Shown: positions 15,611 through 30,553 of the stretch, piece by piece
Layout of the letters: every line of letters starts with the position of its first letter
How positions within the stretch are numbered: position 1 is the stretch's first letter
Source of the DNA: Alphaproteobacteria bacterium
Lineage (GTDB): Bacteria > Pseudomonadota > Alphaproteobacteria > Acetobacterales > Acetobacteraceae
DNA: 46,133 nt
Direction of reading: 5' to 3'
Assembly (NCBI GenBank): GCA_016869735.1
Contig: VGDL01000029.1
Location: 1 to 46,133, forward strand
Position numbers and translations under genes: made by a program
The notes under the pieces: generated by a model
The model's input: the letters and a program-made list of their open reading frames with translations, nothing else
What the model was told of the DNA's origin: nothing
The model's database searches: none

Positions 15611-17305
15611 TCATTCAGCCTCAGTGGCCGGCGCGGCGGCTTCCTTGGATGCGGAATCGCGTGACCCAGCCGCGCCGGAACGCAGCACCACGATCAGCTT
15701 TTCAATCGCCGTTGCCTTATCGCAGCGGTCAATCGCCGCGGCTTCGGCAGCCAGCCGGTCCAAAGCCAATTCATAGATCTGGCGTTCGCTGAAGGATTGG
15801 TCGGGCTGGCCGGCATTGCGGAACAGGTCGCGCACCACTTCAGCAATCTGCACCGGATCGCCCGAATTGATTTTCGCTTCATATTCCTGCGCACGGCGTG
15901 ACCACATGGTGCGCTTGATGCGTGCGCGGCCCTTCAGCGTATCCATGGCCGGCTGGAAGCTTTCCGTGGTGCAAAGCTTGCGCAGCCCCGAAGATGACGC
16001 CTTGTTAACCGGCACACTGAGTTTCATGCGGTTTTCCTCAAAGGTCACTTCAATGACCTGCAAGGAATAGCCAGCCGCTTCCACCGTGCGGATGCCCTGC
16101 ACCGTGCCCACGCCATGGGTTGGATAGACAACGTAATCGCCTGTCTTGAATTCCTGTTTCGGGGCGGCAGGCGGTTTGGGCGAAGACGACATCGGCATTC
16201 CAGGACGAGGCGGGCCACCGCCCGGCGGGCGCATCCCCAATTGAACATTCGGGCGCATGGTGGGCGGCGGCGGAGACAGCGGGGAAATGCTGGGCGGCGG
16301 CGCCGGCCGCGGTGCGGGCGCGGGGGAAGGCGGGGTGACCATGGCCACCGCCGGCGCTTGTGCCAGCCCTGGCCGAGGCAGGGTTTCGGGCGCTGCAGTC
16401 GCGGGGCTTGGCGCTTCCTTAGGGTCGGAGGAAGCCGCGGGGGGGGCCTCGACCTTGGTACCACCGGCAGGGGCGGACTTGGCCTTGGATTTGGTCGCGG
16501 GCTTGGCAGCAAGCGGCGCGGCGGCGGGGGCGTCAGCCGCCGGGGCAGCGGGCTTGGCCGGGTTTGGTACATTGGCCTTGGCAGGTGCCTCAGCGGCGGG
16601 GGGTGCAGGCGGCTTCGCGGGCTTGGCCAGCGCTTCAGGGGCTGGCGCCACAGGAATGGCGACGGGCTTTTCCACCTTGGCGGGCGCTGCGGGTTTGGCA
16701 CTGGGCGCCGCCGCTTTCGGCTTGGCGGGCGCTGCGGGTTTGGCACTGGGCGCCGCCGCTTTCGGCTTGGCGGGCGCTGCGGGTTTGGCACTGGGCGCCG
16801 CCGCTTTCGGCTTGGCGGGCGCTGCGGCGGCAGGCTTGGCGGCAGCCTTGGGCGCCGGCTTTGGTGCCGGTTTTGCAAACAACTTAGGCGCTACCTTAGG
16901 CGCTACCTTAGGCGCTACCTTAGGCGCTACCTTAGGCGCTACCTTAGGCGCTACCTTAGGCGCTACCTTAGGCGCTGCCTTGGGCGCTGGCTTGGCCGCT
17001 GGCTTGGCCGCTGGCTTGACGGCGGCTTTGGGCGCCGGCTTCGCTGCGGGTTTCGCGGCAAGCTTGGGGGCAGGCTTCGCCGCCGGCTTGGCTGCGGGCT
17101 TCGTCGCTGCTTTGGGAATGGGCTTCTTCACAGGTTTCGGCGCCACCTTCTTACTGGGCTTCGCGGTCGCCTTTGCCTTGGCGGAGGATTTCTTCGCGGC
17201 CGGCTTGGCGGCTGATTTCGCCTTGCTGGTGGGCTTCTTCGCCGCGGGGCGGGCCGGCTTGGCGCTGCCCTTGGCGGGCGCCTTGGACACTGGCTTGCGT
17301 GTCAT
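15611..17305 (-). CDS. carD: CarD-family RNA polymerase-binding regulator with a giant basic low-complexity N-terminus
   Basis: A 564-residue protein. Residues about 385-541 are a complete CarD/CdnL domain: FKTGDYVVYPTHGVGTVQGI starts the RNA-polymerase-binding Tudor-like part, and GRARIKRTMWSRRAQEYEAK with DPVQIAEVVRDLFRN forms the helical DNA-contacting part. The Trp in RTMWSRR probably corresponds to the residue that CarD inserts at the promoter bubble. Alphaproteobacterial CarD proteins are normally about 160-170 residues. Here about 384 residues rich in Ala, Lys and Pro precede the domain, with SAKPAAKKP-type, PKVA and KPKAAAPSAKPAAP repeats, like histone H1 or AlgP-type tails. The start is supported by GGGAG about 10 bases upstream. 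The frame stays open throughout both DNA repeat tracts, so the extension appears genuine. Likely an essential transcription-initiation factor with an added nucleic-acid-binding tail. Confidence 0.9.
   Translation of the reverse strand: MTRKPVSKAPAKGSAKPARPAAKKPTSKAKSAAKPAAKKSSAKAKATAKPSKKVAPKPVKKPIPKAATKPAAKPAAKPAPKLAAKPAAKPAPKAAVKPAAKPAAKPAPKAAPKVAPKVAPKVAPKVAPKVAPKVAPKVAPKLFAKPAPKPAPKAAAKPAAAAPAKPKAAAPSAKPAAPAKPKAAAPSAKPAAPAKPKAAAPSAKPAAPAKVEKPVAIPVAPAPEALAKPAKPPAPPAAEAPAKANVPNPAKPAAPAADAPAAAPLAAKPATKSKAKSAPAGGTKVEAPPAASSDPKEAPSPATAAPETLPRPGLAQAPAVAMVTPPSPAPAPRPAPPPSISPLSPPPPTMRPNVQLGMRPPGGGPPRPGMPMSSSPKPPAAPKQEFKTGDYVVYPTHGVGTVQGIRTVEAAGYSLQVIEVTFEENRMKLSVPVNKASSSGLRKLCTTESFQPAMDTLKGRARIKRTMWSRRAQEYEAKINSGDPVQIAEVVRDLFRNAGQPDQSFSERQIYELALDRLAAEAAAIDRCDKATAIEKLIVVLRSGAAGSRDSASKEAAAPATEAE
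16682..16816. repeat. 45-bp tandem repeat, three perfect copies, inside carD
   Basis: Three head-to-tail identical 45-base units (16682-16726, 16727-16771, 16772-16816) plus the first 11 bases of a fourth. Each codes on the minus strand for the 15-residue block that includes KPKAAAPSAKPAAP. Unit length is a multiple of three, so gain or loss of copies would keep the frame. Confidence 0.95.
16884..16979. repeat. 12-bp tandem repeat, eight copies, inside carD
   Basis: Eight consecutive copies of TTAGGCGCTACC, the first seven identical and the last with one A-to-G change. They encode the tetrapeptide APKV/PKVA repeatedly on the minus strand. Perfect copies at the DNA level imply recent expansion by slippage; copy-number change keeps the reading frame. 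Confidence 0.95.
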
Positions 17306-17427
17306 GAGAATGGGACTCCCAACGCAGAACCCGGATCAGCGCGACCCGGTCGAGAATGCAGACCATCACCCCCGGCAGTCACCTGGGCAGAACCAGTGCT
17401 GGAAATGACGAAAACCTTTAATAACAC

Positions 17428-18253: not shown

Positions 18254-21106
18254 TCAGTCCTTCTTGAGCTTCAGTGCGGCCAGCACCGAAAAGGGGCTAT
18301 CGGGACGCGGCATTGGGGGCAGGGCTGCGCGGTCCTCTCGCGGCGGCCGAGGGCCGCGCGGGCGGTCATTGCCGCCCTTATTGCCGTAATGCTGGCGCTG
18401 CTGCTGTTGCTGACCGCCTTCGGGCTTCGGGCGCCGATCCGGGCGTTGATCGGGCCGGCGGTCAGGGCGCTGCTGCTCGGGCGGCGCCTGGTCGGGCGCG
18501 GCACCTTCAGCCGGCTTGTCGTCTTGCCGGCGATGATCCGGGCGGGGGCCGCGACGATCCGGGCGCAGGTCATCCCGGCGGGGGCCATGCTGGCGCGGTT
18601 CAAAGCGGGGCGCGCGTTGCTGGCCAATACGCGCGGGCGCGGGCGGGCCAAAATTCTTTTCATCGAGCGTTTCGGCGGGGATCAGCCGAAAGCCCATCGC
18701 TTCCAACACCGGGGCAAGGTTTTCGCCCTTGATGCCCAGGCGGCTTGCCAGATCGCCCGGCAGCAGCGCGGGGGATTTGCGCGTGAGGTGCCCCAATTCG
18801 CCGGCGATGCGTTCCGCCACATCCAGGCGGAGCAAGACGGGGCCAGCGGGCAGCCAGCCCATGGTTTCGGCAAAGCCGCGCGGCCAATCGGCGGGCGGCG
18901 CCACCGCAATCAAACCGCCGGAGGGCAGTTTTGGCGTTTCAATGCCCCTCAGCAGGGACCAAAGCTGCGCCCGCAGCGCCATGGCGCGTGGCTTCAAGGC
19001 TTCCGGCACGTAAAGCGCGTAACGCCCGGCGCGGATGCCTATGCCCTTCAGCTTCTGGCGCAGATCAGGGCGGATTTCACTATCCGTTGCCCCCATGGCC
19101 AGGCCCAATTCTTCCCGCAGGCGAAAGGCCGGGCCGCGCAGCGTATTGTCTTCGGCGGCTTTTTCCTCGGCGGTGAAAATCGCGCCCAGATCGCGCTTCA
19201 CCAAAGCCTCAATCCAGGTGGCCAGACGCGCACGAATACGTTCACGCTGCGCGCCATCCAGAAATTCGGAAGGCAGCACTTCAATCAGCGGCTTGCCGGG
19301 TTCTGAACCGGATTTCAGCTTGGCCACTTCCGCGATATCGCCAAGCCCAGCCGGCATATTGGGTGCGTGGGAATAGGCCCAGGTGACGCCATGCTGCGGC
19401 GTGATCGCAAAAGCCTCATCCTTCGCGGATTCCAGCATGGTGACGCGGCGCGGGATTTCCGCGCCAAGCGCACGGCGCGCAGCACGCAGCACAACGCGGC
19501 GTTCTTCTTCCTTCACCGTCGCCGCATCGGGTTCAAACAGAAAGCCCTTCACATGGCCGACCGGATGGCCTTCCACGACCACTTCACCGCGGCGCGTGAC
19601 GGCGGAAAGCAATTCCTCATCGCTTTCATCAAGCGCGCGGATCAGATGCGCGGCGCGACGATCCACAAAGCGCGCGGTCAGGCTTTCATGCAGCGCGTCG
19701 GAGACCGTGTCTTCAACGCGCCGCGCTTCAACTTGCAATCCGGCGGCATCATCCAGCCAATCGGCGCGCGCCGCGACATAGGACCAGACGCGAATGGCCG
19801 AAAGGCGGGCCATCAGCGTATCCAGATCACCTTCCGCCATGCCGAGTTGCGCGAGCGATGACGCCACCCAATCGCGCGGCAGCCGCCCCTCACGCGCCAA
19901 ATGCGTGAAAATGCGCGCGCAAAGCCTAGTGTGGCTATCATCCGCAAGCTTGCGGAAATCCGGCACCTGGCAGGCTTCCCAGAGCAAACGTACGCGTGAT
20001 GCGGTATCCGCCAGGCCGCGAATTTCTTCTTCCCGCACCAGCATGGAAAGCGTGATGTGGTCCACCGCATCATGGCCCTTGGCTAGGCCCGGCTGCGGTG
20101 CCGGTGCGCCGAGGGTATCAAGCAAGGTTTCGACCGAGGAGAAATCCAGATCTGAATTGCGCCACGCCAAGGTTTTCAGCGGTTCAAAGGCATGGGTTTC
20201 GATCTGGGTGACGATCTCATCATCCAGAACCGGAGCCTCTGCCGTGGTGCCAAAGGTGCCATCGCGCATGCCGCGCCCGGCGCGGCCGGCGATTTGCGCG
20301 ATTTCCTGCGCTGTCAGGGCACGCGGCTGATGACCATCAAACTTATTGAGTGCGGCGAGCGCGACATGGTCCACATCCATATTAAGGCCCATGCCAATCG
20401 CATCCGTCGCCACCAGGAAATCCACTTCCCGGTTTTGATAAAGGGCGACCTGCGCATTGCGGGTGCGCGGCGAAAGCCTGCCCATCACCACCGCGCAACC
20501 GCCACGCCGACGGCGCACCGCTTCGGCAATGGCGTAGACTTCCTGCGCGCTGAAGGCGACAATGGCGGAACGTGCCGGCAGGCGGGAAAGCTTGGCGGGG
20601 CCCGCGTAAGTCAGTTGCGAAAGCCGCGCGCGGGTTTCAATTTCCGCGCGCGGGATCAGACGGCGCAGCAAGGGCGCGATGATCTCGGCACCCAGGAACA
20701 TGGTTTCCACCATGCCGCGCGCATTCAGCAGCCGATCAGTGAAGATATGCCCGCGATCCGGGTCCGCGCAGAGCTGGATTTCATCAACCGCGAGGAATTC
20801 CACCGGCCGATCCAGCGGCATGGCTTCCACGGTGCAGGCGAAATACTTCGCCTCAGGGGGCACGATTTTTTCCTCGCCGGTAATCAGGGCGACGTAGCGT
20901 TCGCCCTTCATCGCCACCATGCGATCATAGTTTTCACGCGCCAGCAGCCTGAGCGGAAAGCCGATACTGCCCGAGGCATGGGCGAGCATCCGCTCAATCG
21001 CGAGGTGGGTCTTGCCGGTATTGGTCGGGCCAAGGATGGCGCGAACCCTGGGTTCGAACATGCGGGGGTCACTGTCCAAGAAAGAAAACGTGGAGTTCCG
21101 TGGCAT
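18254..21106 (-). CDS. SUV3-like DExH RNA helicase with Arg/Pro/Gln-rich tail
   Basis: A 950-residue superfamily 2 helicase related to mitochondrial SUV3. Motif I is GPTNTGKT (26-33), motif II is the variant DEIQ (108-111), motif V lies in LVATDAIGMGLNMD, and motif VI is QIAGRAGRG (271-279). SUV3-type C-terminal helical parts follow. In mitochondria the enzyme unwinds RNA for degradation by PNPase; a similar RNA-turnover role is assumed here. Residues about 823-950 form a low-complexity tail rich in Arg, Asp, Pro and Gln, with RPDRRPDQRPDRRPKP and a QQQQQ run, closing with SPFSVLAALKLKKD. Such a tail is suited to RNA binding. First gene of the leftward helicase - S4 - fdxA group. An alternative start is Met16. 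Confidence 0.9.
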   Translation of the reverse strand: MPRNSTFSFLDSDPRMFEPRVRAILGPTNTGKTHLAIERMLAHASGSIGFPLRLLARENYDRMVAMKGERYVALITGEEKIVPPEAKYFACTVEAMPLDRPVEFLAVDEIQLCADPDRGHIFTDRLLNARGMVETMFLGAEIIAPLLRRLIPRAEIETRARLSQLTYAGPAKLSRLPARSAIVAFSAQEVYAIAEAVRRRRGGCAVVMGRLSPRTRNAQVALYQNREVDFLVATDAIGMGLNMDVDHVALAALNKFDGHQPRALTAQEIAQIAGRAGRGMRDGTFGTTAEAPVLDDEIVTQIETHAFEPLKTLAWRNSDLDFSSVETLLDTLGAPAPQPGLAKGHDAVDHITLSMLVREEEIRGLADTASRVRLLWEACQVPDFRKLADDSHTRLCARIFTHLAREGRLPRDWVASSLAQLGMAEGDLDTLMARLSAIRVWSYVAARADWLDDAAGLQVEARRVEDTVSDALHESLTARFVDRRAAHLIRALDESDEELLSAVTRRGEVVVEGHPVGHVKGFLFEPDAATVKEEERRVVLRAARRALGAEIPRRVTMLESAKDEAFAITPQHGVTWAYSHAPNMPAGLGDIAEVAKLKSGSEPGKPLIEVLPSEFLDGAQRERIRARLATWIEALVKRDLGAIFTAEEKAAEDNTLRGPAFRLREELGLAMGATDSEIRPDLRQKLKGIGIRAGRYALYVPEALKPRAMALRAQLWSLLRGIETPKLPSGGLIAVAPPADWPRGFAETMGWLPAGPVLLRLDVAERIAGELGHLTRKSPALLPGDLASRLGIKGENLAPVLEAMGFRLIPAETLDEKNFGPPAPARIGQQRAPRFEPRQHGPRRDDLRPDRRGPRPDHRRQDDKPAEGAAPDQAPPEQQRPDRRPDQRPDRRPKPEGGQQQQQRQHYGNKGGNDRPRGPRPPREDRAALPPMPRPDSPFSVLAALKLKKD

Positions 21107-30467: not shown

Positions 30468-30553
30468 TGGTGCGGCCAAGAAGATTCGAACTTCCACGGG
30501 GTTGCCCCCACCAGCACCTCAAGCTGGCGCGTCTACCATTCCGCCATGGCCGC
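30468..30553 (-). tRNA. tRNA-Leu (anticodon GAG)
   Basis: An 86-base class II tRNA on the minus strand. The acceptor stem GCGGCCA / TGGCCGC pairs perfectly, followed by A and an encoded CCA. The anticodon arm CCAGC-TTGAGGT-GCTGG gives anticodon GAG, reading Leu CUC/CUU. A long variable arm (GGGG-CAA-CCCC) and the T-loop TTCGAAT are present. A short CACCC-TTTC-GGGTG hairpin follows between the tRNA and maeB. Confidence 0.95.

Follow-up and report, generated by a model that had tools for sequence, protein, structure and literature searches.

The only CarD/CdnL protein found in the genome of an Acetobacteraceae bacterium carries a long histone H1-like tail in front of its CarD domain, and comparison with related genomes indicates that N-terminally tailed CarD is a recurrent architecture in alphaproteobacteria. 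The gene lies on the minus strand of the window, which is the whole stretch of DNA analysed here (contig VGDL01000029.1, 46,133 nucleotides). The open reading frame (ORF) and its domain features are as follows.

15611–17305, minus strand: carD/cdnL ORF with N-terminal tail, 564 aa (ORF list; CarD domains by Pfam)
15974–16150, minus strand: CarD RNA-polymerase-interacting domain PF02559, residues 386–444 (Pfam)
15698–15946, minus strand: CarD C-terminal helical domain PF21095, residues 454–536 (Pfam)
15902–15904, minus strand: Trp468, at the position of the Trp in solved CarD proteins (alignment)

The ORF begins with ATG and has the coordinates given by an earlier sequence-only reading of this DNA. 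That reading placed a complete CarD domain at the C-terminus, which was confirmed, as both Pfam domains were matched above their curated cut-offs: CarD_TRCF_RID (PF02559) at residues 386–444 (E 4.1e-13, 49.6 bits versus a cut-off of 23) and CarD_C (PF21095) at residues 454–536 (E 6.5e-21, 74.6 bits versus a cut-off of 23.1). Trp468 is invariant in all 39 aligned rows, the window's sequence among them, and the corresponding Trp is reported to be required in other CarD proteins (PMC8407463). The closest solved proteins by sequence are Myxococcus CdnL and CarD proteins from other bacteria. In the predicted model, residues 1–390 lack secondary structure; block pLDDT values are 42–58 in the tail (one block reaches 66) and 84–95 over residues 381–540. 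In the fold search, the leading hits were CarD structures, both isolated and within polymerase complexes; the top matches 4l5g_A, 8hvr and 6edt had TMt values of 0.86–0.90, and some other CarD entries were lower, such as 4kbm with 0.58. The tail is thus predicted to be unstructured, and the CarD domain is predicted to keep the CarD fold and the key tryptophan.

This ORF encodes the CarD/CdnL of the genome, a factor that binds RNA polymerase and acts in initiation. The genome, which is 99% complete, gave a single match to the CarD_C profile and no second CarD, so the housekeeping job presumably falls to the tailed form. The only other PF02559 match lies within a 1158-aa frame, which fits what Mfd would give. 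CarD has been proposed to activate transcription initiation generally in alphaproteobacteria (PMC8407463). The earlier description of CarD as essential was too general, as CdnL is reported not to be essential in Caulobacter (PMC5324124). The protein resembles alphaproteobacterial CdnL, for example that of Caulobacter, in its two Pfam domains, conserved Trp, single copy found and predicted CarD fold. It differs in length, with 564 residues owing to the tail versus 160–200 reported for standalone CdnL (PMC4374960). The 28 residues from CarD_C to the protein end (15614–15697, minus strand) finish with ATEAE and without the AA/VA ending that is reported in more than 80% of alphaproteobacterial CdnL and tied to proteolysis in Caulobacter (PMC5324124).

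The tail comprises residues 1–383 and consists of 31% Ala, 26% Pro and 17% Lys (74% K+A+P), with a net charge of +65. The sequence-only reading had described a long Ala/Lys/Pro tail similar to histone H1 and AlgP; this holds for the composition, and the length is 383 residues instead of the 384 given. The repeats that it named were also found, as a 12-bp unit (PKVA) and a 45-bp unit. Alignment with close relatives, here called sisters (14 copies sharing the start MTRKPVSK, with two identical pairs, hence 12 distinct sequences including the window's), divides the tail into three parts and locates the repeats.

17108–17305, minus strand: tail part 1, residues 1–66, conserved lysine-rich start, net charge +22 (sister alignment)
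16349–17107, minus strand: tail part 2, residues 67–319, variable K/A/P repeats, net charge +37 (sister alignment)
16157–16348, minus strand: tail part 3, residues 320–383, conserved proline-rich linker, net charge +6 (sister alignment)
16883–16988, minus strand: 12-bp tandem repeat (PKVA), 8.8 copies (tandem repeat; sister alignment)
16676–16827, minus strand: 45-bp tandem repeat, 3.4 copies with 100% matches (tandem repeat; sister alignment)

Part 1 is the most H1-like part of the tail. Of the 12 aligned sister sequences, only the window's has the 12-bp array. The 12-bp and 45-bp arrays together correspond to about 55–60 residues absent from the other 11 sisters, whose tails have 299–335 residues versus 383 in the window's copy, so the two arrays about explain why the window's tail is longer. 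Among the window's 151 ORFs of at least 100 aa, only the carD ORF contains a 60-aa stretch with at least 60% K+A+P and 10% K. No globular linker-histone domain was matched by Pfam in the protein at E up to 1, and the RGRP motif is absent from the tail. An origin of the tail as a copy of another protein was not supported: a search of its own genome with the tail returned only itself at E up to 10, with 150 of 508 candidates scored and with bias corrections that may hide composition-only matches. Separately, a 950-aa ORF of the window that reads as helicase-like (18254–21106, minus strand) has a long low-complexity C-terminal tail rich in Arg, Gln and Pro.

The sequence-only reading had argued that the tail is expressed because its frame stays open. 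The frame is indeed open; the argument is weak, since antisense frames of 366 aa (16115–17215) and 383 aa (16257–17408) are also open across the tail tract, and in several sisters these antisense frames are likewise nearly or wholly free of stops. An open frame was therefore rejected as evidence of expression. Conservation among the sisters is more informative. The start MTRKPVSK is conserved in the 12 distinct sequences, and a further sister (L099) has the same start in frame. Two leader elements are conserved upstream.

17316–17320, minus strand: GGGAG, similar to a ribosome-binding site, 10 nt before the ATG (conserved in 12 sister sequences)
17331–17349, minus strand: leader hairpin of 7 pairs directly before GGGAG (conserved in 12 sister sequences)

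In the hairpin, one pair is changed on both sides in 4 of the 12 sisters, and one pair is broken in 1 of the 12. The differences between sisters fall mostly at codon position 3. The dN/dS was 0.20 for residues 1–66, 0.22 for residues 67–319 and 0.067 for residues 320–383, versus 0.020 for CarD (residues 384–530) in the same sister set; these are pooled pairwise estimates made without a tree, with an unsure alignment over residues 67–319, and L099 and the copies cut by contig ends were excluded. The conserved start together with the low dN/dS along the tail indicates that the tail genuinely belongs to the protein, and the comparison of sequences shows its reading frame to be conserved and under protein-level constraint. 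Translation starting just before the CarD domain, which the earlier reading had named as the case against itself, is contradicted by the constrained first 66 codons and the conserved start. A single-genome oddity or an assembly artefact was likewise rejected by the sister survey and by the genus, family and class surveys given below. The only known RNA family found in the window at gathering thresholds was a tRNA at 30471–30553, and promoter and terminator scans gave counts close to those of shuffled sequence.

CarD_C was found in 34 of the 35 genomes of the genus. Thirty copies, the window's among them, were obtained as loci; contig ends cut 4 of these, and 26 are uncut. All 26 uncut copies are tailed, with 156–391 residues when the open frame is read from its first ATG, a count that may be too long. 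In several copies a start further inside the frame is likelier (MTRK or MKxxAR type), giving for example 343 instead of 391 residues in L099 and 156 instead of 226 in L084, and tails of at least 155 residues where such a start was seen. The net positive charge per residue is 0.15–0.21 in the 26 uncut copies despite sequence divergence. Named neighbours of the window's genome include Roseomonas and Neoroseomonas. In a quick tree the window's copy falls in a clade with an SH-aLRT of 99; it holds 34 rows, with some organisms represented twice, and 24 of the rows are basic-tailed.

Across the family, CarD_C was found in 289 of 297 genomes and 89 of 91 genera. One copy per genus was tabulated for 88 genera; the three missing are g18 and g46, with no match, and g84, with a degraded match. 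A long basic K/A/P tail was present in 20 genera, a long K/A/P tail with little or no charge in another 20, some other extension of at least 50 residues in 16, and fewer than 50 residues in 26, and 6 genera were left without a class. A divergent CarD domain with less than 55% identity to the window's was found in 24 of the 88 genera, and 20 of these 24 have the short form. The comparison of N-terminal length across Acetobacteraceae CarD proteins that the sequence-only reading had proposed was thus carried out, with lengths from fewer than 50 to 383 residues, and this range indicates that the tail is no oddity of the window's genome. Two side observations were made in the family. Some CarD extensions are acidic, with a net charge of -21 (g7; L178/L020) or -16 (L190). 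In the divergent clade (L157–L169, L209–L215), most rows have a common leader, some 35 residues long with a KGG(M/V)TD-type core, which is possibly a separate functional motif.

Outside the family, tailed copies recur. A class sample of 134 genomes had CarD_C in 119, of which 116 are non-family genomes. A tail was scored as H1-like when at least 50 residues precede the domain with K+A+P of at least 42%, K of at least 8% and a net charge of at least +0.10 per residue, thresholds that were fixed after the first 11 of the 20 passing copies had been seen. By first ATG, at least 20 of the 116 non-family genomes, from 18 families, have an H1-like N-terminal tail. This is a lower bound because only open frames of at least 230 aa were fetched, which covered 41 of the 116 genomes; a second match in G421, under the cut-off, was left out. 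Three further copies with basic tails were not counted, one without an ATG (L239) and two just under the thresholds (L255 and L264). Several tails are plainly H1-like, for example L231, L233 and L265. The distance from domain start to protein end is 161–183 residues in all 20 copies, so none of them has a long C-terminal tail as well.

A single origin of the tail was not supported. At a minimum, the tail state changed 17 times on a tree of 168 rows scored with a looser class definition, where L165 and L170 counted as basic probably because of an upstream open frame and were later classed otherwise, and 20 times on a 76-row tree with 69 rows scored and 7 not; both trees are quick and poorly resolved with long branches, so the counts are rough. 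At least 20 state changes on such a tree nevertheless make repeated gain and loss likely. Some short forms begin with a few lysines (MAKK, MSQKQK), which suggests that tails may grow from a short basic leader. In L245, from the one-contig genome G329, the H1-like carD tail appears split between frames within repeats, and the tail frame is open in L231 (G443) of the same genus; the split is either real variation or an assembly error, the latter a concern that the sequence-only reading had raised for the repeat tract of the window's gene.

With a predicted CarD fold and an invariant Trp468, the domain is taken to act as a normal CarD and the tail as a tether. The folded domain would dock on the RNA polymerase beta lobe and wedge at the -10 element like other CarD proteins, and the tail would rest on nearby DNA without sequence specificity. 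Such a tether could raise the local concentration of CarD and its bound polymerase on the nucleoid and slow the loss of CarD from promoters. In-frame repeat slippage would alter tail length and charge, which would explain the variation of the tail between relatives. By analogy with the C-terminal HMGA/H1-like domain of myxobacterial CarD, the most likely role of the tail is to hold the CarD–RNA polymerase complex on nearby DNA. In M. xanthus CarD, histone H1 or the H1 tail is reported to substitute functionally for the disordered basic DNA-binding domain (PMC8156234), and without this C-terminal domain the protein is reported to be less effective (PMC8156234, PMC4374960). KPAA-repeat peptides of AlgP are reported to bind DNA (PMC9239181), and lysine repeats to stabilise topoisomerase I on DNA (PMC7398561). 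From the present analysis, the conserved start and leader, the dN/dS values, the disorder model, the CarD fold matches, the single CarD_C match of the genome, the steady charge density in the genus and the recurrence outside the family were counted in favour. On these grounds, a CarD/CdnL with a long disordered N-terminal polycation acting as a non-specific DNA tether is a reading that we consider about evenly balanced between right and wrong. Many relatives have short, weakly charged or acidic tails, so the tether cannot be needed for CarD function family-wide. An N-terminal extension is also not automatically harmless, as Caulobacter CdnL was apparently impaired by an N-terminal FLAG tag (PMC5324124). 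A shortage of other nucleoid proteins was not supported as the reason for the tail, since the genome has four HU/IHF-type matches. More tentatively, with the balance leaning against it, alphaproteobacteria may have repeatedly made CarD nucleoid-anchored through an N-terminal H1-like tail grown from a short basic leader, and a length adjusted by slippage may set the activation of CarD-dependent promoters (rRNA and others).

The tail may instead be low-complexity drift, a tolerated slippage product of a high-GC tract with little or no function. In favour are the 12-bp and 45-bp tandem repeats, the former private among the aligned sisters, and the wide range of tail lengths and charges across the family, where many genera are missing the basic tail. 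The higher the GC of the CarD domain DNA, the lower the lysine content and charge of the tail (rho -0.80 and -0.75), so mutation bias shapes the composition. However, dN/dS values of 0.07–0.22 and the conservation of the first and last tail parts argue against a tract without function, as does the charge density in the genus. Relative to their own CarD domains, 40 of 40 tails favour Lys over Arg, a count biased by picking tails partly on lysine, and lysine-rich tails occur even where the CarD domain DNA has only 31–44% GC (L265, L263, L261). We consider drift unlikely.

The polycation might also act by clustering RNA polymerase with nucleic acid in a condensate, or by binding polyphosphate and thereby pulling CarD off promoters in starvation. 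AlgP is reported to sit on polyphosphate granules and to space them through its KPAA-repeat tail (PMC9239181), and the window's genome has a polyphosphate kinase match; for these reasons such roles are live rivals of the DNA tether. The kinase is no special pointer, however, as it was also found in 7 of 14 control genomes, and we regard this explanation as quite doubtful. The least probable account is that of two products, in which a start inside the Pro-rich linker yields, beside full-length CarD, a short CarD doing the standard job: an in-frame Met lies at most 30 residues from the domain in all 14 sister copies inspected and at most 62 residues away in 12 of 13 other genus copies, but at most 30 residues away in only 3 of those 13, and the constraint on the first 66 codons means that the full-length product is made regardless.

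The tethering reading has precedents in known systems. Fusion of CarD to an H1-like region is already known from myxobacteria, at the C-terminus and in the CarD/CarG branch. As described there, the CarD domain is joined to a disordered, basic, K/A/P-rich region (PMC8156234, PMC9304148), which in Anaeromyxobacter CarD is H1-like and C-terminal (PMC9304148). In contrast, the basic region is N-terminal (residues 1–383) in the window's protein. Myxobacterial CarD is reported to work with CarG at ECF-sigma promoters, and M. xanthus has a separate CdnL for housekeeping (PMC4374960, PMC8156234), whereas here the tail is on the only CarD found. AlgP and PhaF of Pseudomonas share long KPAA-type repeats and predicted disorder with this tail; their tails are described as C-terminal, that of AlgP behind a helical N-terminal domain, and the host is not an RNA-polymerase-binding factor (PMC9239181). 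Actinobacterial topoisomerase I with its lysine repeats (PMC7398561) and HupB also have an H1-like tail on a DNA-acting protein, with other host proteins and, as far as described, C-terminal tails.

No description of an N-terminal H1-like tail on CarD was found in the literature covered, which is partial and leaves most subscription journals outside. The available text of the papers on alphaproteobacterial CarD mentions no tail (PMC8407463, PMC5324124), and the word 'extension' is absent from that of the Caulobacter CdnL paper (PMC5324124). What is apparently new is thus the N-terminal form on the only CarD of an alphaproteobacterium, together with its recurrence. If a sizeable share of alphaproteobacteria has a polycationic CarD tail, models of promoter activation without a tail are incomplete for them. 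A simple truncation could then test whether bacteria have a counterpart to the tethering of transcription machinery by histone tails. If the tail does anchor CarD, a tail of the chromatin type would in these bacteria be linked to RNA polymerase itself. The recurrence also provides a natural comparative experiment, as the tails of near relatives may be long and basic, weakly charged, acidic or absent. At least five genomes of the genus (G002, G007, G033, G012 and G015) have a second, short CarD paralogue (L223–L227), which shows 44–47% identity to the window's domain and accompanies the tailed copy, an arrangement that resembles the pair of CarD and CdnL in Myxococcus.
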